Below, piece after piece: positions 14,338 to 57,712 of a DNA stretch of 64,000 nucleotides. The stretch spans positions 930,001-994,000 of the forward strand of contig JANEZZ010001412.1 in NCBI GenBank assembly GCA_026122225.1, in the 5' to 3' direction. This DNA is from Heloderma charlesbogerti. Lineage: Eukaryota; Chordata; Lepidosauria; Squamata; Helodermatidae. Under the pieces are notes generated by a model that ran no database searches, was not told the DNA's origin, and worked only from the letters and a program-made list of their open reading frames with translations. The number at the start of each line of letters is the position of its first letter. The first letter of the stretch is position 1. The translations under genes were made by a program, and so were the position numbers.

Positions 14338-15165
14338 TAGGGATGTACGAAAGTCACTGACCTTTTTGAAGGGTGACATTCGCGGTGGGGGGGAGGCGCT
14401 CTGTCCCTCCCCTTGAAATTCTCTCCGGCTGGCTCCGCTCCATGGAGATTCCGTGGAGCCGCCGGCCGGGGCCACCCACAACCAGACATCCGGCCAGTGG
14501 GCAGCCTGCAGGCCTGTAGCCGCCGCCATTTGCGTCCCTGTATTTTGCCATATTTACGTATTTATATTTACGTAGCCTATCACAGCAAAAAAGACACAAA
14601 AAACAGCGGATACAAATGACAGACACCATTTGTGTTCCGTTTTTTGCCATTTTAGCCTACGTAAATATTTACGTAGGCTATTACGGCAAAAACAAAAAAA
14701 AAGGAATGCAAATGGCATAGTGGCTGCCATTTGCGTTCCCGTTTTTGTTTTTTTTTTGCCGTAATAGCCTATGTAAATATTTACATAGGATAAAACAGCA
14801 AAAAAAAAAAAGGGAATGCAAATGGCGTCCGCCGTAGGCGCCGCCATTTGCGTTCCCTTAGTTAAGCCGTGATAGGTTACGTAAATACTTATGTAGCCTA
14901 TCACGGCTTCTGCAGGGACACAAATGGCGTCCCTGCGTTAGCCATGATAGGCTATGTAAGTATTTACGTAGCCTATCACGGCTACATGGAAGAAGCGAAT
15001 GGCGGCCGCAGATGCAGCCGCCATTCGCAAGTCAGCTCGGACGGCAGCAGGTAGGTGCTCTGTTCCAGGCCCTTTTCGCGGGGTGGGGGGGCGGGGGTGC
15101 TTTCTTCCGCCACGGATTTCAGGGGGCTGAATGCACTGCCATGGTGGAATTCTCTGACATCCCTA
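14338..15165 (+). mobile_element. palindromic hAT-like element, copy 1
   Basis: It begins TAGGGATGTACGAAAG and ends TCTGACATCCCTA. Flanks GATGATGC (14330-14337) and TGTGATGC (15166-15173) agree at 6 of 8 bases, so this is an old 8-bp target duplication. The interior is a row of palindromes: CGCAAATGGCG...CGCCATTTGCG modules alternate with GATAGGCTACGTAAAT/ATTTACGTAGCCTATC hairpins, of which about five are visible. Long frames here are by-products of CpG-rich inverted repeats. Orientation is arbitrary, with the TACGAAAG end called left. Confidence 0.85.
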
Positions 15166-15362: not shown

Positions 15363-16000
15363 TAGGGATGTCAGATAATTCAGCCACGGATTCCAGTGAG
15401 GCCAGATTCATTAGAATCCAGCCCCCCGGAATCCATGGTGGAACAGCCTCCCACCCCGTGAAATCCCCCTGCAACGGAACTTACCTGGGGTGGATGCGGC
15501 GGCAGCAGCAGCTCCGGCGGCGGCGGCTGGTCTCCCGGCTGGCTGCGGCCGGGCTGCTGTGGCCACCATTTGCGTCCTTGCAGCTGTGATAGGCTACATA
15601 AGTATTTACGTAGCCTATCACGGCAAAGAGCAGGGACGCAAATGGTGGCCGCTATGCCATTTGTGCCCCTGATCTTTGCCATGATAGGTTATCATATCCA
15701 TGATAGGCTGCCATTTGCGTCCCTGCTTTTTGCCATGATAGGCTACGTAAATACTTACGTATGCTATCACGGCTGCTTGCAAGGATGCAAATGGCAGCCA
15801 CTACGACAGCTGCCATTTGCGGCCGCAGCAGCCTGGCTGCGGCCGGAACTCCGGCTACGGATGGCCCCGGCCGGCGGCTCCACGGAGCTGCCGCAGAGTG
15901 TAGCCGGCTAGGGAGGATTCCGGGGGGAGGGATGGAGCGGCTCCCCCCCCCCCCGCGAATGTCCCTGCGCAGAGCCAGGTAAGGGATTCGTACATCCCTA
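15363..16000 (-). mobile_element. palindromic hAT-like element, copy 2
   Basis: It starts TAGGGATGTCAG and ends TCGTACATCCCTA, so it is inverted relative to copy 1. It is flanked by an exact 8-bp duplication GCAGTTCC (15355-15362 and 16001-16008). The interior has two or three TACGTA-core hairpins and CGCAAATGGC modules. It lies only 197 bp from copy 1, in opposite orientation. Confidence 0.92.
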
Positions 16001-20983: not shown

Positions 20984-21410
20984 TAGGGATGTACGGACTG
21001 TGTAAAATCCGCTCCGTCTGTGTTTTGTGGATTGTCAGGTGCCTTTCATTCCGTCATCCGCCCACAGACAGTTGCGAATATTTTTTTTTCATCATGTGGA
21101 AAAATATGGAAATAATTACGTAAATATTTATGTAAGTGTTTATGTAAGCGTTTAGGTAAATGTTTACATAATTTACCCCAGTACGTAACATTTAGTGTAT
21201 TGTCCCCTATTCCATTCTTCGTTTCCTCAGCAGAAACTTACATATTTTCTACAGATTTATATGCATACATTTCGGGAAAGTAAAAAAATCATCCAAAAGT
21301 CCATGGACTCCTCAGGGCCTGAGGAGGTTGCTCCGCAGAGGATTCCGCAGGTTGGATTCTTAGAAATCCCAGCTCATTTTAATCCATCTCAAATTTCTCC
21401 AGCATCCCTA
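20984..21410. mobile_element. TAGGGATGT-type hAT-like element, third interior class
   Basis: It begins TAGGGATGTACGG and ends CCAGCATCCCTA, between exact 8-bp duplications GTAAAAAG (20976-20983 and 21411-21418). The terminal word matches the palindromic family, but the interior differs. It is AT-rich with several tandem 'taaatatttatgtaagtg'-like units at 21118-21172 and no GC-rich hairpins. It has no credible gene. Confidence 0.88.
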
Positions 21411-31241: not shown

Positions 31242-31793
31242 TAGGGATGTACGAGAGTCAACTACCTTTTCGAAGGGTGACATTCGCAGTGGGGGGGAGG
31301 TGCTCCATCCCTCCCCCCAAAATTCATTCGGCCATCCAGCCACTGGGCAGCCTGCACAGGGACACAAATGGCGGCCGCCGTAGCCGCCGCCATTTGCGTC
31401 CCTGTATTTTGCAGTGATAGGCTACATAAATATTTATGTAGCCTATCACGGCAAAAAAAACAAAAAAAGGGAACGCAAATGGCGGCGGCTACGGCGGCCG
31501 CCATTTGCGTTCCCTTTTTCTTTTGCCATGATAGGCTACGTAAATACTTAAGTAGCCTATCACGGCCTCCGCAAATGGCGTCCCTGCGTTATCCATGATA
31601 GGCTACGTAAGTATTTGCGTAGCCTATCACGGCTATAATGAAGAAGCGAATGGCAGCAGGTAAGTGCTCTGTTTCGCGCGCCTTTCGCGGGGTGGGGGGG
31701 CGAGGGGCTTCATTCCACCACGGATTTGGGGGGGCCGAATGCACTGGCATTCAGCCTCACCGAGATCCGTGGTGGAATTCTCTGACAACCCTA
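31242..31793 (+). mobile_element. palindromic hAT-like element, copy 3
   Basis: It starts TAGGGATGTACGAGAG and ends TCTGACAACCCTA. Flanks GTTACAAC (31234-31241) and GTGACAAC (31794-31801) agree at 7 of 8. The core is a palindrome centred near 31490 (ACGCAAATGGCGGC against GCCGCCATTTGCGT), flanked on each side by a GATAGGCTACRTAAAT hairpin. It ends with the family right end, where CCGAATGCACTGGCATTC forms a small hairpin between two CCACGGAT-like arms. Confidence 0.92.
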
Positions 31794-36728: not shown

Positions 36729-36996
36729 TAGGGATGTTGGAGAAATCCTCCATGGACCCCAATGAGGCAGGACTCTATTGAATCTGGTCCCCCGAAGTCC
36801 GTGGAGGATCAGCTCTCCTACCTTGTCTTCCAGCGCGAAGTCCTCACCAGCGGATCCTCCCTGCTGCCAGCTCCAAAGACCCAGCGATACGGCCACCATG
36901 GCCGTATAGTCAGACTGCGTCTGTTACATCATTTGCATCCCTGCTCTTTAACATGATAGGCTACATAAATCTTTAACGTGATAGGCTATGCCTATC
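36729..36996 (-). mobile_element. palindromic hAT-like element, truncated copy
   Basis: It begins TAGGGATGTTGGAGAA and follows the inverted right end of the family ('ccatgga', 'ggtcccccgaagtccgtgg', then TCCTACCTT). It continues through one ATAGGCTACATAAAT arm and stops without a second terminus. It is a half element in the same orientation as copy 2, either deleted or decayed. Confidence 0.65.
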
Positions 36997-37848: not shown

Positions 37849-39868
37849 TTAAAACCTGGATGAAGATCCTTTGCAGTCAATAACTGCCTGAAGTCTGGAA
37901 CCCATGGACATGACCAAATGCTGAGTCCCCTCCCTTGAGATGCTTTGCCAGGCCTTTACTGCAGCTGCCTTCAGCTGCTGCTTGTTTGTGGGTCTTTCTG
38001 CCTTCAGTCTTAGGAATGTACGAAAGTGACTTACCTTTCGCGGATTATGTTGATGGTGGGGGGGGAGGTGTTCCGTCCCTCCCCCTGGAATACTGGCCGA
38101 GGGGGGAGGCGCTCCGTTCCTCCCCCCGGAATCCTCGAACGGCCGGCTGTGCTCCACGGCAGCTCCGCGGAGCAGCCGGCCAGGCCAGAGCTGCCCGCAG
38201 CCGGATTTCTGACCGCGGAGGGCTCTGGGTAAAACAAAAAAACCAACCGCATATGCAAATGGCGGCGGCTATGGCTGCCGCCATTTGCGTTCCTTCTTTT
38301 TGGCCATCTTAATCTACATAAATATTTACGTAGACTATGATGGCGAAAATCAAGGGGAACGCAAATAGCATAGCGGGCGCTATTTGCATCCCTTTTTCAT
38401 TCACCGTTTTAGCTTACGTAAATCTTTACGTAGGCTAAAATGGCGAATCAAAAGGGGATGCAAATAGCGCCCACTACGCTATTTGCGTTCCCCTTGATTT
38501 TCGCCATCATAGTCTACGTAAATATTTACGTAGATTAAGATGGTAAAAAGAAGGAACGCAAATGGCGGCGCCTGTAGCCGCCACCATTTGCGTATGCTTT
38601 TTTTTTTTTAAACCCACCCCCAACCATGATAGGCTACGTAAATATTTATGTAGCCTATCACGTCTTTTTTGTCTTTTTTTTTAAAACCTAGCCATGATAG
38701 GCTACGTAAATCATGTCTTCCCCCCGCCCCAAGCCTGGAAATGGCAGCGGCGGCAGCCGGTCGGAAGACTGCCCGCTGCCGCCGCCGCAGCCACCACCGC
38801 AGCCGCCGCCGGAGCCACCGCCGGAGCTGCCGCCACCTGGAAGATCCGCCCCAGGTAAGTCTCATCCCGGGGGGGATCCGTGGGGGGGCGGGGGGGCAGG
38901 CCGTTCCACCACAGATTTCAGGGGGCCGAATGCACTGGCATTCAGCCTCACCGAGATCCGTGGCGGAATTCTCTGACATCCCTATTCAGTCTTGTCTTCA
39001 GTAAGTGAAAAGCATGCTCTATTGGGTTGAGATCAGGTGACTGACTTGGCCATTGAAGAACATCTGACTTCTTTGCCTTCAGAAACTCTTGGGTAGCTTT
39101 TGCTATATGTTTTGGGTCATTATCCATCTGCAATATAAAGTGGCGTCCTATCAGTTTGGCAGCATTCGGTTGAATCTGAGCAGAACGTATAGCCCTATAC
39201 ACTTCAGAATTCATCCTGCTGCTTTTGTCTGCAGTCAGGTCATCAATAAACACCAGTGACCCGGTTCCATTGGCAGCCATACATGCCCATGCCACAACAC
39301 TGCCTCCACCATGTTTGACAGATGATGTGGTATGCTTTGCATCATGAGCTGTTCCTTTCCTTCTCCGTACTTTTCTCTTCCCATCATTCTGGTACAAGTT
39401 AATCTTGGTTTCAGCAGTCCAAAGAATCTTATTCTAGAACTGGGCAGGCTTTTTTAGGTGTTTGCTGGCAAAGGCTAATCTGGCCTTTCTGTTCTTGAGC
39501 ATTACCAGTGGTTTGCACCTTGTTGTGAAGCCTCTGTATTTACATTCATAAAGCCGTCTCTTGACTGTAGATGTTGACAATGACATGCCTACTTCCGCAA
39601 GAGCGTTCTTGACCTGGCTAGATGTTGTGAAAGGGTTCCTCTTCACCCTGAGCAGAATTCTGCAGTCATCCACTGTAGTTGTCTTCTGTGGTCGTCCAGG
39701 CCTTTTGCTGTTGCTGAGCTTGCCAGTTAATTCCTTCTTTTCCAGGATGTTCCAAACTGTTGTATTGGCCACTCCCACTATTTTTGCTATCTCTCTGATG
39801 GGCTTATTTTGTTTCCTCAGCCTAATGATGGCCTCCTTCACTCACATGGACACCTCTTTGGGCCTCAT
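37849..39868 (-). pseudogene. Tc1-like transposase, broken
   Basis: The minus-strand frame starts ATG at 39868-39866. It has an N-terminal helix-turn-helix region (IREIAKIVGVANTTVWNIL, then GRPQKTT) and a DDE-type catalytic half with MDNDPKHIAKATQEFL and WPSQSPDLNPIEHAF. Damage seen: an in-frame TGA nine codons after the ATG, and a TAG at 39431-39433 where Tc1 proteins have the tryptophan of an FWNKILW-type motif. A 974-bp insertion at 38011-38984 separates the last 50 or so residues (AERPTNKQQLKAAAVKAW onward, 38002-37849). The frame is otherwise maintained at 39868, 39841 and 39397, so decay is moderate. Confidence 0.93.
38011..38984 (+). mobile_element. palindromic hAT-like element, copy 4, inside the Tc1 transposase
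   Basis: It starts TAGGAATGTACGAAAG and ends TCTGACATCCCTA between exact 8-bp duplications TTCAGTCT (38003-38010, 38985-38992). The section 38249-38596 is one large inverted repeat centred near 38423. Its arms themselves contain hairpins with cores such as TAAATATTTACGTAGA and GCAAATAGCGCCCACTACGC. CAGGTAAGT at 38852-38860 and, on the other strand, AAGGTAAGT at 38037-38029 point outward. The host transposase frame resumes on both sides. Confidence 0.96.
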
Positions 39869-40000
39869 GTTGGGAGCTCCAGTGAACAGCTACCAAATGC
39901 AAATGTCACACTCAGAACCACCTCCAGTTTTTTTATCTGCTTGATTGGTCATGGGGCACCCAGGAAACAGGCCACACCTGCCCATGCAGCTGCTTGTCAG

Positions 40001-41079
40001 TAGGGATGTACGAAAATCATTTACCTTTCGCAAATTATGCTGATGGGGGGGGAGGCGCTCTGTCCCTCTCCCCGGGGGGAGGCGCTCCGTTCCTCCCCCC
40101 CCCCGGAATCCTGGCCAGCCGGCTGTGCTCCGCAGCGATTCTGCGGAGCCGCTGGCCGGCTCCGCCAGCAGCCGGACATCCGGCCGCTGGCTAGCAGGGA
40201 CACAAATGGCGGCAGCCATAGCCACCGCCGTTTGCATCCCTGCAGTCAGCCGTGATAGGCTACATAAATGTTTAAGTAGCCTATCACGGCTGACTTAAAC
40301 AAAAAACAAAAAAACGCGTGTACGCAAGTGGCGGCAGCCATGGCCACCGCCATTTGAGTTCCTTATTTAGGCACGTCTTAGTCTACGTATACATTTACGT
40401 AGACTAAGGCAGCGAAAATAAGGGGAACGCAAATAACGTAGCGTCTACACTATTTGCGTTCCCCTTATTTTCGCCGTCTTAGTCTATGTAAATGTTTACA
40501 TAGACTAAGACGTGCCAAAATAAGGAACGCAAATGGCGGCGGACATGGCCACCACCATTTGCGTACGCGCGTTTTTTGTTTTTTGTTTAAGTCAGCCGTG
40601 ATATGCTACTTAAACATTTATGTAGCCTATCACGGCTGACTGCAGGGATGCAAACGGCGGTGGCTATGGCTGCCGCCATTTGCGTCCCTGCTAGCCAGCG
40701 GCCGGATGTACGTAAGATTTACGTAGCCTATCACGTTTTTTTTTTTTAAACCTAGCCCTGATAGGCTACGTAAATCTTTACGTAGCCTATCATGTTTTTG
40801 TTTTTGTTTTTTTAAACTGGAAATGGTGGCGGCCGGTCGGAAGACCGGCTGCCGCCGCTGCCGAACCGCCGCCGCTGCCGAACCGCCGCCGCTGCCAAAC
40901 TGCCGCCGCTGCCAAACCGCCGCCGCTGCCGAACCGCCGCCAGAGCTGCCGCCGCCAGGAAGATCTGTCCAAGGTAAGTCTTGTCCCGGGGGGGGGCGTT
41001 CTGCCACCGATTTTGGGGGGCCGAATGCGCTGGCATTCGGCCTCTCCGAGATCCGTGGCGGAAATTTCGTACATCCCTA
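40001..41079 (+). mobile_element. palindromic hAT-like element, copy 5, inside the Tc1 element
   Basis: It starts TAGGGATGTACGAAAA and ends TTCGTACATCCCTA with exact duplications CTTGTCAG (39993-40000, 41080-41087). The interval 40178-40707 is an inverted repeat of about 530 bp centred near 40442, with arms that each hold several smaller hairpins (for example 40247-40290 and 40592-40641). A GC-rich minisatellite lies at 40852-40945. It is the longest copy, in the same orientation as copy 4. Confidence 0.96.
40852..40945. repeat. GC-rich minisatellite, unit about 18 bp
   Basis: About five tandem copies of a unit like CCGCCGCTGCCGAACCG, with A/G variation, inside element copy 5. The Pro/Ala/Gly-rich frames read through it are artefacts of the repeat. 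Confidence 0.85.
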
Positions 41080-41244
41080 CTTGTCAGCCATTCATTCCAT
41101 CACTTATGAGCCACCAACGATGGGTGTGTGTGTATGCCACTGGCTATACTTCCTGAATGGTTAGTGCCCCACTTTTGTCAAGCCCCTTGAATTACAGCTG
41201 CAAGTCCTGACTTCGCTCTTATCTGGGTGTGCTTCCTTTCAACT

Positions 41245-44200
41245 TCAATGTGGTGGTGTACAGAGGCCAACTGCCAAAACAGTTATCCTTGTTCCAATAT
41301 TTCTGGCCCTGTTGTAGTCGTTCAGTCGTGTCCGACTCTTCGTGACCCCATGGACCATAGCACGCCAGGCCTTCCTGTCCTGCGCTCTCTCCCGGAGCGT
41401 GCTCAAGTTCATATTCATTGCATCCGTGATGCTATCTAGCCATCTCATCCACTGCCGTCCCCTTCTCCTTTTGCCTTCAGTCTTTCCCAGCATCAGGGTC
41501 TTTTCCAGGGAGTTTTCTCTTCGCATTAGGTGGCCAAAATATTGGAGCTTCAGCTTCATTATCTGTCCTTCCAATGAGCACACAGGGTTGATTTCCTTTA
41601 GGATGGACTGATTTGACCTCCTTGCAGTCCAGGGGACTCGTAAGAGTCTTCTCCAGCACCACAGTTCGAAAGCATCAATTCTTCGGCGCTCAGCCTTCCT
41701 TATAGTCCAGCTCTCACAGCCATACATTACTACTGGGAAAACCATAGCTTTGATTAGACGGACCTTTGTCGGCAAGGTGATGTCTCTGCTTTTTACTATG
41801 CTGTCTAGGTTGGCCATAGCTTTCCTCCCAAGGAGCAAGCGTCTTTTAATTTCATGGCTACAGTCACCGTCTGCGGTGATCTTGGAGCCCAAGAAAGTAA
41901 AATCTGTCACTGCTTCCATTTCTTCCCCTTCTATATGCCAGGAAGTGATGGGGCCAGATGCCATGATCTTCGTTTTTTTAATGTTGAGTTTCAAACCAGC
42001 TTTTGCACTCTCCTCTTTCACCCTCAACAAGAGGCTCTTGAGATCCTCTTCGCTTTCTGCCATTAGGGTGGTATCGTCTGCATATCGGAGGTTGTTGATA
42101 ATTCTCCCAGCAATCTTAATTCCGACCTCTGATTCATCCAACCCGGCATTTCTCATGATGTACTCTGCATATAAGTTAAATAAGCAGGGTGACAATATGC
42201 AGCCTTGTCGTACTCCTTTCCCAATTTTGAACCAATCGGTTGTTCCATGTCTGGTTCTTACTGTTGCTTCTTGACCCTCGTACAGGTTTCTCAGGAGACA
42301 GGTAAGGTGGTCTGGTACTCCCATCACTTTAAGAATTTGCCACAGTTTGTTGTGATCCACACCATCAAAGGCTTTAGCGTAGTCAATGAAGCAGAAATAT
42401 ACATTTTTCTGGAATACTCTTGCTTTCTCCATGATGCAGCGAATGTTGGCGATTTGATCTCTAGTTCCTCTGCCTCTTCTAAACCCAGCTTGTACTTCCG
42501 GTAGTTCTCGGTTCGTATACTGCTGAAGCCTAGCTTGTAGGATTTTGAGCATCACCTTGCTGGCATGTGAAATGAGCGCAATTGTGCGGTAGTTTGAACA
42601 CTCTTTGGCGTTGCCCTTCTTTGGAATTGGAATGTAAACTGACCTTTTCCAGTCTTGTGGCCACTGTTGAGTGTTCCAGATTTGTTGGCATATTGAATGC
42701 AGCACTTTAACAGCATCATCTTTTAGGATTTTAAATAGCTCGGCTGGAATACTGTCATCTCCGCTAGCTTTGTTGTTACTAATGCTTCCTAAGGCCCACT
42801 TGACTTCACTCTCGAGGATGTCCGGCTCAAGTTCAGTGACCGCACTATCATGGCTATCAGGGACAGTCAGATCTTTCCTGTATAGTTCTTCTGTGTATTC
42901 TTGCCACCTCTTCTTAATCTCATCTGCTTCTGTTAGGTCCCTGCCTTCTTTGTCCTTTATCATGCCCGTCTTGGCACAAAACGTTCCCTTGAGATCTCCA
43001 ATTTTCTTGAAGAGATCTCTAGTCTTTCCCATTCTGTTGTTTTCCTCGATTTCTTTGCATTGTTCATTTAAGAAGGCCTTCTTGTCTCTCCTTGCTATTC
43101 TCTGGAACTCTGCATTCAGTTGGGTATATCTTCCCCTTTCTCCCTTGCTTTTCGCTTCCCTTCTTTTGTGAGCTACTTGTAAAGCCTCATCAGACAGCCA
43201 CTTTGCTTTCTTGCATTTCTTTTTCTTTGGGATGGATTTCGTTGCTGCCTCCTGAACAATGTTACGGACCTCCGTCCATAGTTCCTCAGGCACTCTGTCT
43301 GTCAGATCTAATCCCTGAAATCTATTCCTCACCTCCACTGTATATTCATCAGGGATATGATTTAGGTCATACCTGAACGGTTTAGTGGTTTTCCCGACGT
43401 TCTTCAATTTAAGCCGAAATTTTGCGAGAAGCAGCTCATGATCTGAGCCACAGTCAGCTCCAGGTCTTGTTTTTACTGACTGTATGGAGCTACTCCATCT
43501 TTGGCTGCAAAGGACATAATCCATCTGATTTCGATATTGACCATCTGGTGACGTCCATGTGTAGAGTCGCCTCTTGTGCTGTTGGAAAAGAGTGTTTGCT
43601 GTGATCAGCATGTTCTCTTGGCAAAACTCTATTAGCTTTTGTCCTGCTTCATTTTGTACACCAAGGCCATGCCTGCCTGTTATCCCGGTGATTTCTTGAC
43701 TTCCTACTTTAGCATTCCAATCCCCTATGATGAAGAGGACATCTTTTTTTGGTGTTAGTTCTAGAAGGTGTTGTAGGTCTTCATAGAACCGATCAACCTC
43801 AGCTTCTTCGGCCTCAGTGGTTGGGGCATAGACTTGAATTACGGTGATGTTGAATGGTTTGCCTTGGATTCGTACTGAGATCATTCTATCATTTTAAAGA
43901 TTGTACCCCAGTACTGCTTTTCCCACCCTTTTGTTGACTATGAGTGCTACTCCATTTCTTCTAAGGGATTCTTGTCCACAATAGTAGATATGATGGTCAC
44001 CTGAATTAAATTCGCCCATGCTTGTCCATTTTAGTTCGCTGATTCCCAAGATGTCGATGTTCAATCTTGCCATCTCATGTTTGACCACCTCCAGCTTACC
44101 TTGATTCATTGATCTGACATTCCAGGTTCCTAAACAATATTGTTCTTTACAGCATCGGATTTTCTTTTCACCACCAGACACATCCACAGCTGAGTGTCCT

Positions 44201-44457
44201 TTCGGCTTTGGCCCAGCCGCTTCACTCTTTCTGGCGCTACTTGGAAATACCCTCTGCTCTTCCCCAGTAGCATATTGGACACCTTCCGACCTGAGGGGCT
44301 CATCTTCCGGCGTCATATCTTTTAGCCTTGTGATACGTTCCATGGGGTTTTCTTGGCAAGAATACTAGAGTGGGTTGCCATTTCCTTCTCCAGTGGACCA
44401 CATTTTGTCAGAACTCTCTGCCATGACCTGTCCGTCTTGGGTGGCCCTGCACGGCAT
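41245..44457 (-). pseudogene. BovB endonuclease/reverse transcriptase ORF with two stops
   Basis: The ATG is at 44457-44455 (MPCRATQDGQVM). An apurinic-type endonuclease follows with GTWNVRSM, ISELKW, VYAPT, GDWNAKVG and the catalytic SDH in SDHELL. The reverse transcriptase has FIDYAKAFDGVDH, GVRQGCILSPCLFN and the catalytic RYADDTTL, then GLKLNIKKTKIM. A C-terminal region with CESWTIRKAERRRIDAF and a basic EGKRRRGRQ completes it. In-frame stops are TAG at 44367-44365, where the 27-kb copy has CAG, and TAA at 43896-43894 ahead of NDRMISVRIQG. No frameshift is seen over about 1050 codons. After the usual SRTRLND end there is no stop, so the frame runs into the Tc1 flank and ends at 41245. Confidence 0.95.
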
Positions 44458-45707: not shown

Positions 45708-46432
45708 TAGGGATGTATGAAAGTGACTTACCTTTCATGGATTATGTTGATGGGGGGGAGGCATTCCATCCCTCCCCCCGGAATCCTGGCTGGGGGGGAG
45801 GTGCACCGTTCCTCCCCCTGGAATCCTTGAACAGCCGGCTGTGCTCCACAGCAGCTCCATGGAGCAGCTGACCAGGCCTGGCCAGGTCAGAGCCATACGC
45901 AGCTGGATTTCCAGCCGCGGAGGGCTCTGGATAAAAACAAAAACAAAAAAAAGATTTATGTAGGCTAAAACGGTGAATGAAAAAGAGACGCAAATAGCGC
46001 CTGCTACGCTATTTGCGTTCCCCTTGATTTTCGCCGTCATAGTCTACGTAAATATTTACATAGATTAAGACAGTAAAAAGAAGGAACGCAAATGGCGGCA
46101 GCCGTAGCCGCCGCCATTTGCATACGCGGGGGGTTTTTTTAAACCCACGCAACCATGATAGGCTACGTAAATCTTTACGTAGCCTATCACGTCTTTTTTT
46201 TTTTTACACAAGCCTGGAATTGGTGGCGGCGGCAGCCAGTCAGAAGACCAGCCGCCGCCGGAGCTGCCGCCAGAGCCGCCGCCGCCCAGAAGATCTGCCC
46301 CAGGTGAGTCTCGTCCTGGGGGGGATCCGCGGGGGGGTGGGGGGCAGGCCGTTCCGCCACGGAGTTCGGGGGGCTGAATGCACTGGCATTCGACCTCACC
46401 GAGATCCGTGGCGGAATTCTCTGACATCCCTA
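45708..46432 (+). mobile_element. palindromic hAT-like element, copy 6
   Basis: It starts TAGGGATGTATGAAAG and ends TCTGACATCCCTA. Flanks CTCTTTTA and CTCTTTTG agree at 7 of 8. It resembles copy 4 but the left half of the big palindrome is missing: 'aacaaaaaaaagatttatg' at 45945-45960 passes straight into the centre. Right-side hairpins are intact, including 46155-46191 with TACGTAAATCTTTACGTA. It is therefore an internal deletion derivative. Confidence 0.92.
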
Positions 46433-56909: not shown

Positions 56910-57712
56910 TAGGGATGTACAAATCCCTTACCTGGCTCCGCACAGGGGCATCTGCGGTGGGGGGGAGGTGCTCCATCCCTCCCCCCGGAATCCTCGATGG
57001 GGGGGAGGTGCTCCGTCCCTCCCTCCGGAATCCTGCCCGGACGGCTCTGCTCCGCTCCACGGCCAAGCCGTGGAGCTGCCGGACGGCTCCGGCCGCCCGC
57101 AGCCGGACATCCAGCCGCTGGGCAGCCCTGCAGGGATGCAAATGGCGGCTGTCGTAGCTGCTGCCATTTGCATCCCTGTATTGAGCCATGATAGGCTACG
57201 TAAATATTTACGTAGCCTATCATGGCAGGGGGAAAAAACCCAGCGTACACAAATGACGGTAGCCGCCGCCATTTGCGTATGCTGGGTTTTTCTTCCCCCT
57301 GCCGTGATAGGCTACATAAATACTTACGTAGCCTATCACGGCATGGGGGGGAAACCCAGCGTACGCAAATGGCGGTAGCCACCGCCATTTGCGTACGCTG
57401 GGGTTTCTCCCCCCCCCCGCCATGATAGGCTACATAAATGCTTACGTAGCATATCATGGCCTCCGCAGGGACGCAAATGTAAAAAGTATTTACGTAGCCT
57501 ATCACAGCTGAGAAGAAGAGGAAGTGAATGGTGGCTGCAGGACAGCCGCCATTCGCAAAGCAGCACAGACGGGAGCAGGTACGTGCTCCGTTTCGCGCGC
57601 CTTTCGTGGGGTGGGGGCGGCGGGGACTTCATCCCGCAATGGATTTTGGGGGGCCAAATGCACTGGCATTCAGCCTCACTGAGATCCATCGTGGAATTCT
57701 CTGACATCCCTA
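56910..57712 (+). mobile_element. palindromic hAT-like element, copy 7
   Basis: It starts TAGGGATGTACAAATC and ends TCTGACATCCCTA. Flanks GTAAGCAG and GTAAGAAA agree at 6 of 8. The interior is a tandem series of three very similar hairpins (57185-57227, 57300-57343, 57419-57461), each with GATAGGCTAC...GTAGCCTATC arms. Palindromes of CCCAGCGTACGCAAATGGCG type separate them. It lacks the single large centre of copies 4 and 5. Confidence 0.88.

Follow-up and report, generated by a model that had tools for sequence, protein, structure and literature searches.

Probable inverted copying and nested palindromes in a hAT-like transposon family of Heloderma charlesbogerti

The element at positions 40001–41079 of a 64,000-nucleotide stretch of the Heloderma charlesbogerti genome (the window, to which all coordinates below refer) contains palindromes nested within a larger palindrome, and it raises the question of whether this architecture records growth by repeated inverted duplication, as the first-pass annotation proposed, or merely the repetition of units that are themselves palindromic. 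Caution is needed here, as a row of palindromic modules has a hierarchical appearance even where no inverted duplication has taken place. A chain of perfect palindromes is symmetric about every one of its modules, and ancestry was therefore tested at asymmetric sites, by comparing modules in direct and in inverted alignment, which separates the two histories.

We identified seven members of a short mobile-element family in the window: copies 1 (14338–15165), 3 (31242–31793), 4 (38011–38984, 974 bp), 5 (40001–41079, 1079 bp), 6 (45708–46432, 725 bp) and 7 (56910–57712), all on the plus strand, and copy 2 (15363–16000), in the opposite orientation. The seven copies share a TAGGGATGTACGAAA-like 5' terminus and a ACATCCCTA-like 3' terminus; in copy 5, which is a complete element, the ends read TAGGGATGTACGAAA and TTTCGTACATCCCTA and are complementary at 15 of 15 positions. 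Exact 8-bp target site duplications flank copies 2 (GCAGTTCC), 4 (TTCAGTCT, at 38003–38010 and 38985–38992) and 5 (CTTGTCAG, at 39993–40000 and 41080–41087), as well as a relative, element X, described below; the flanking octamers agree at seven of eight positions in copies 3 and 6 and at six of eight in copies 1 and 7. Compared with MITEs, the seven copies have common ends and no evident transposase, and at 552–1079 bp they exceed the usual length of such elements. The 8-bp duplications and short inverted ends, by which hAT elements are defined in a recent paper (PMC11008031, with ends of 15 bp), support the classification of the family as a non-autonomous hAT-like transposon, in agreement with the first-pass annotation. 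This assignment rests on the ends, because no transposase was noticed when the list of the copies' open frames of at least 120 aa was read by eye. The target preference given for Hermes, nTnnnnAn (PMC10368747), fits three of the seven copies (3, 5 and 7) and element X.

The ratio of observed to expected CpG is 0.71–1.13 in the seven copies and element X, versus 0.23 in the remainder of the window; one reading is that these elements are young, GC-rich or protected from methylation. Near both ends of all seven copies there is an outward-pointing AGGT word resembling a splice donor (in copy 4, at 38028–38045 and 38844–38861), the right-hand word being exactly CAGGTAAGT in three copies and one base off in the other four. 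Together with the GC-rich interior, these words look like candidate leftovers of a first exon, or an outward promoter with its donor. On the right side of three copies are GCC-rich short tandem repeats, with 17-bp units in copy 5 (40851–40941), 12- or 24-bp units in copy 4 (38773–38834) and 12-bp units in copy 6 (46250–46284). The surroundings include pieces of Tc1-type transposases, and copy 4 appears to lie, in the region 37960–39900, in or beside a Tc1-type transposon with transposase frames at 38948–39841 on the minus strand. Downstream of copy 5, also on the minus strand, is a LINE (41245–44364) whose long open frame encodes reverse transcriptase and endonuclease domains; it is presumably BovB-like, which would fit a squamate host.

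A scan with two probes derived from the window showed that the interior of the elements is mostly an alternating chain of two palindromic modules. Module A is about 44 bp long (GCAAATGGCGGC...GCCGCCATTTGC, also given as GGGACGCAAATGGCGGC...GCCGCCATTTGCGTCCC), and module B is 42 bp long (GCCGTGATAGGCTACGTAAATATTTACGTAGCCTATCACGGC, with GATAGGCTACGTAAATATTTACGTAGCCTATC given as its short form); the arm words and the core word that the first-pass annotation had assigned to the small palindromes are present. The alternation is plain in copies 1, 3 and 7, where tandem series of such units had been reported and were found, with periods of 114 bp in copy 3 and 116 bp in copy 7. It is broken on the 3' side of copies 4 and 5, where two B modules, one of them shortened, are consecutive, and in copy 2, where the scan placed no B between two A modules and a broken B can be read. 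Weak matches to A (scores of 12–14) are located in the GC-rich flanks of copies 4, 5 and 7. An ungapped palindrome scan yielded 27 palindromes within the eight elements (6026 bases, with X counted among them) and 11 in the remainder of the 64,000 bases.

Two further elements in the window are related to the seven copies. Element X (20984–21410, plus strand) has ends of the family type and an exact 8-bp duplication (GTAAAAAG); instead of an A/B hairpin chain it contains tandem 12-bp units (consensus TATGTAAATGTT) similar to the core of B. With the B probe, its stretch TACGTAAATATTTATGTA reaches a score of 16; the five best of 51 background chunks of 1 kb score 10, 10, 11, 12 and 20, the last of which we take to be a decayed copy near 36932–36976. 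Because every unit in a tandem array of TACGTAAATATT contains two points of palindromic symmetry, B may have begun as such an array, a suggestion that we offer as speculation. The decayed eighth copy, extending in the opposite orientation from 36729 to about 37000, has an end (TAGGGATGTTGGAGA) and remnants of one A and one B module; inspection by eye did not reveal the opposite end.

Beyond the single modules, copies 4 and 5 each contain one large mirror. In copy 5 it extends from about 40173 to 40712 around a centre near 40443, slightly beyond the 40178–40707 (centre 40442) of the first-pass annotation, and its arms are complementary at 249 of 269 aligned positions with a single gap column, versus the 153 gap columns needed to align the two halves directly. 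In copy 4 the mirror spans about 38237–38609, rather than 38249–38596 as first proposed around a centre at 38423; the centre, at 38423.5, is the middle of the module 38403–38444, and the arms are complementary at 168 of 185 aligned positions with three gap columns, compared with 59 in direct alignment. A dot plot with direct repeats only, which would have argued against the proposal, is thereby excluded for these two copies. The ungapped palindrome scan gives a score of 95 to the large mirror of copy 4 and of 86 to that of copy 5, compared with 33 for the best of the 11 palindromes outside the elements. Furthermore, the predicted folding of single strands, which the first-pass annotation had suggested as a check, is far beyond that of shuffled sequence in both copies: positions 40173–40712 of copy 5 fold into a single long hairpin, as DNA with -306.3 kcal/mol, versus -79.7 ± 5.2 for 100 dinucleotide shuffles (z = -44), and as RNA with a z of -48, and the RNA fold of 38237–38609 in copy 4 has a z of -35.5. 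Such a long hairpin is the behaviour that these computations would lead one to expect of the mirrors when single-stranded.

The left arm of copy 5 (40173–40442, plus strand) consists of the left flank, the modules A1 (40197–40240), B1 (40249–40290), A2 (40319–40362) and B' (40372–40413), and half of a central, short A-type hairpin, D (40420–40466, with arms at 40420–40435 and 40451–40466), the mirror centre falling at its loop. The right arm (40444–40712) returns this series on the minus strand and is followed by a truncated B module (40710–40735, plus strand) at the right junction and by the last B module of the copy (40755–40796). The smaller palindromes that had been described within the arms were recovered: that placed at 40247–40290 as 40244–40295, with 25-nt arms matching at 96%, and its partner, placed at 40592–40641, as 40590–40641, with 25-nt arms matching at 92%. 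The one at 40375–40410 is present and weaker (module 40372–40413, 6 of 21 pairs unmatched), and the span 40484–40511 turned out to be only part of a module whose palindrome, at 40475–40512, has perfectly matching 18-nt arms. Of the "two or three" levels of symmetry that had been claimed, two are borne out. A third level within copy 5 was sought and rejected: A1 and A2, on either side of B1, differ by 12 mismatches inverted and nine direct, and A3 and A4, on either side of the partner of B1, lean only slightly toward inversion (nine versus 11).

Seven module pairs are related by the mirrors of copies 4 and 5, and every one of them is closer in inverted than in direct alignment, with 25 versus 66 mismatches over 295 bases. 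In copy 5, A1 and A4 (40645–40688) differ at one position when inverted and at 11 when direct, B1 and its partner (40595–40636) at one and five, and B' and its partner (40473–40514) at five and 11; the weakest mirrored pair, A2 and A3 (40524–40567), barely favours inversion, with eight versus nine, and is to that extent a point against inverted copying. As a control, all 33 other pairs of framed modules of the same type within an element gave 299 inverted and 314 direct mismatches, 14 pairs favouring inversion, nine the direct relation and 10 neither. These counts cover modules that fit a 42- or 44-base frame, leaving aside those too broken for it (e.g., 14555–14586, 40701–40735 and 57484–57508) and, for copies 1, 2 and 6, their A modules. 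Since every mirrored pair favours inversion and the controls show little preference, the comparison supports an origin of both large mirrors by inverted copying and not by mere repetition. The stretches between the modules are also inverted across both mirrors. Both mirror centres fall inside a module, that of copy 4 in a B module and that of copy 5 in a short A-type module, and the two mirrors are therefore probably separate events.

For copy 5, the flanks also indicate the direction of copying. At its outer end (up to about 40709) the right arm repeats the left flank of the family (ACATCCGGCCGCTGGCTAGC) in inverted form: read inverted, it is ACATCCGGCCGCTGGCTAGCAGGGAC, a sequence whose counterpart precedes the chain on its left side in copies 1, 3 and 7, copy 2 being more diverged at that place (the alignment of left flanks comprised these copies and not copies 4 and 6). 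The aligned right flanks of copies 4 and 6 are devoid of this sequence. Because left-flank sequence stands inverted in the right arm, the left arm served as template for the right one, and copying ran from left to right, at least in the outer part. The copied arm stops at about 40709, where it is joined to a B module that lacks most of its left arm; we could read no clear signature of rejoining at the junctions.

Copies 4 and 6 provide a two-arm and a one-arm form of otherwise similar elements. They are identical at 627 of 709 aligned positions, and copy 6, which lacks about 180 bp, has one arm, the right arm of the copy 4 palindrome, where copy 4 has two. The gap ends a few bases from the mirror centre of copy 4, and the junction of copy 6 to the common left flank is near 45950. 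Informative sites for the three possible groupings (4, 3 and 2, or 3, 2 and 2 with another outgroup) favour neither duplication nor loss. We give slightly less than even weight to the reading that copy 6 is the deletion product of a copy-4-like palindrome and not a one-arm ancestor. Long palindromes are prone to deletion, and the left arm of copy 4 is closer to the arm of copy 6 than is the right arm (116 of 125 versus 114 of 127 positions; sites 15 versus 5), which speaks for loss; however, a random deletion would seldom end so close to the mirror centre.

We consider it rather probable that copies 4 and 5 are explained by fold-back or template-switch copying primed on pre-existing hairpins. 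The inverted relation of the mirrored modules and of the whole halves, the left-flank sequence in the right arm of copy 5, the location of both centres in modules and the gap between copies 4 and 6 beside the centre of copy 4 speak for it; the undecided informative sites of copies 4 and 6, the closeness of the left arm of copy 4 to copy 6 and the behaviour of copy 7 speak against it. A broken or stalled strand would fold back on the hairpin of a module and prime synthesis along the strand behind it, using its own element as the template, and the new inverted arm would be rejoined to the remainder of the element by end joining or by a second template switch. Such copying may take place while the chromosome is replicated or during the repair of a gap left by excision. 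Copying templated by hairpins would later also restore the matching between arms, and a hAT transposase supplied from elsewhere would spread the products by transposition; some chains would additionally have grown by direct tandem duplication.

A more far-reaching version, which we hold tentatively, is that the modules act as built-in primers, so that the element extends itself by reflecting at them again and again. Every such event would contribute one more inverted arm, a succession of them at A and at B would produce the alternating chain, and new mirrors would open outward from older ones. Among the control pairs, neighbouring modules lean toward inversion: of the 19 neighbouring pairs, 11 favour inversion, three the direct relation and five neither (11, one and four of 16 when copy 7 is excluded, an exclusion made post hoc), compared with three, six and five of the 14 non-neighbouring pairs. 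The strongest leans are those of A1 and A2 in copy 3 (three inverted versus nine direct mismatches) and of B1 and B2 in copy 1 (five versus nine). This lean may hint at reflection between neighbouring modules, as fold-back growth would leave, with the qualifications that the differences between neighbours are small and that module pairs within an element are not independent.

The best surviving rival, which we nevertheless regard as unlikely, holds that a single old inverted duplication took place and that its arms were kept alike by gene conversion or by selection for the hairpin (as DNA, as double-stranded RNA or as sites for the transposase). Three observations could be accommodated in this way, although the first and the third also speak for the fold-back reading. 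The arms of copy 5 have diverged unevenly, with mismatches at three of 141 outer and 16 of 128 inner positions (p = 0.0013; two versus nine, p = 0.028, without CpG-type changes), the cut between outer and inner part following arms delimited beforehand and not being chosen blind; this unevenness suggests either two rounds of copying or a later correction of the outer part, and could be a conversion tract. Secondly, the 15 terminal bases of copy 5 show no mismatch between the two ends, compared with three in copies 1, 3 and 6, four in copies 2 and 4, and five in copy 7. Its 3' end (41065–41079) is the exact inverse of its own 5' end, where the other six copies have a TCTCTGAC-type word, and thus gives the impression that one end was the pattern for rewriting the other, a putative correction by an inverted template. 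Thirdly, the arms of B modules show coordinated changes: among 23 B modules, 24 of 460 cells were altered on both sides, versus 11.5 ± 2.6 after shuffling (none of 500 shuffles being as high), although these modules are related, so that the events are not independent, and two-sided changes occurred in six of 20 pairs, with neither the number nor the types of pairs above those of the shuffles. Against this rival, a single old duplication leaves the different centre modules of copies 4 and 5 unexplained, and the arms also resemble each other in their spacers and in the left flank, stretches with no apparent function. In favour of fold-back copying, the two inner arms of copy 5 group as sisters to the exclusion of copies 4 and 6, with nine informative sites for this grouping versus one and one for the others (9/0/1 and 10/1/0 with other outgroups).

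It is less probable still that direct tandem duplication was the only process, a palindromic A–B unit having been multiplied by slippage or unequal exchange and the large mirrors following automatically. The mostly regular alternation of A and B and the tandem periods of copies 3 and 7 would be expected of it, and copy 7 itself points this way: its four pairs (the first A module, of another frame length, being omitted) show 16 direct versus 22 inverted mismatches, two favouring the direct relation and two being ties, which agrees with its 116-bp tandem period. Direct tandem duplication is thus the likelier mode of growth for the chain of copy 7. For copies 4 and 5 it is refuted as the sole mode by the uniform preference of the mirrored pairs for inversion and by the 59 to 153 gap columns that direct alignment of their halves requires, and the inverted stretches between modules likewise speak against it. 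Growth by inverted duplication is thus supported for copies 4 and 5 and is not the only mode within the family. Fold-back chimeras give inverted duplicates, and an artefact of assembly or library preparation, a chimeric fold-back read, could in principle mimic the mirrors, but we rule this out as having next to no probability, since the arms are too diverged (7–9% of aligned positions), exact 8-bp duplications flank copies 4 and 5, and the modules recur across seven copies.

The family, and the fold-back or template-switch copying that we prefer as its explanation, can be compared with other systems. Other non-autonomous hAT members (PMC11008031, PMC10368747) are alike in their 8-bp duplications and inverted ends of about 15 bp, and differ from the present family in its palindrome-chain interior, the large mirror in two copies and the lack of a transposase seen. 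The foldback-like elements Galileo (PMC3688188) and Tm1 (PMC3169594) share long inverted arms and variable length, and some Galileo subfamilies have internal tandem repeats in these arms, as here (PMC3688188). In Galileo and Tm1, however, the long repeats are the termini, whereas the present family has 15-bp inverted ends, an internal mirror and palindromic subunits; the copy 5 mirror lies wholly inside the element, with only the 15-nt inverted repeats at its ends.

As to mechanism, fold-back inversions in yeast go through single-stranded hairpins (PMC7467729), and human inverted duplications have short inverted sequences at the spacer (PMC3907307). Both resemble copies 4 and 5 in the inverted copy beside a hairpin loop and in being explained by self-folding of a strand; they are gross chromosome rearrangements, whereas the events considered here involve a few hundred bases within a transposon, perhaps repeatedly. 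Small inverted triplications of about 150 bp, for which an origin in an invading or back-folding palindromic 3' flap has been proposed, are alike in size (148/160/148 bp) and in the proposed flap, but retain a third, direct copy (PMC13334657); copies 4 and 5 have two arms only and hold no third full copy, so that the direct–inverted–direct order is lacking. Template switching has been proposed to make and mend hairpins with coordinated changes of their arms (PMC8794818), which is similar to the new perfect stems and the coordinated arm changes by copying considered here, although those hairpins are the stems of RNA genes and not a nested chain in a mobile element; it has also been proposed to act within transposons with terminal inverted repeats, including FB4 with its repetitive ends (PMC8277862). 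A nested chain of palindromic modules is absent from the excerpts of the fold-back, inverted-triplication and template-switch literature cited.

Among the excerpts available from open-licence PMC literature, we found no report of the family or of its nested organisation, and the internal inverted repeats of Tol2, considered as a precedent, were not confirmed in the same material. Rfam gave no match at the gathering score, and exact scans with the B pattern and the 3'-end pattern gave none in viral and prokaryote sequence collections, as expected because the family is a vertebrate repeat; seven viral-contig loci that matched the 15-base end were set aside as chance 15-mer matches. The family may well be catalogued already in a repeat library, and a non-autonomous hAT-like element is of a known kind; what is new is the inverted ancestry of the arms and the presence of two mirror centres within one family.

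Work on fold-back and template switching has so far, in the excerpts cited, concerned yeast, patients, cancer genomes or RNA genes. A transposon family that keeps the products of fold-back synthesis would show many events, with their centres, directions and relative ages, in one genome, the flanks giving the direction of copying and the asymmetries of the modules the ancestry. Should the element indeed grow by such reflection, a single genome would preserve one-arm forms next to two-arm forms, and the family would amount to a natural archive of fold-back synthesis.
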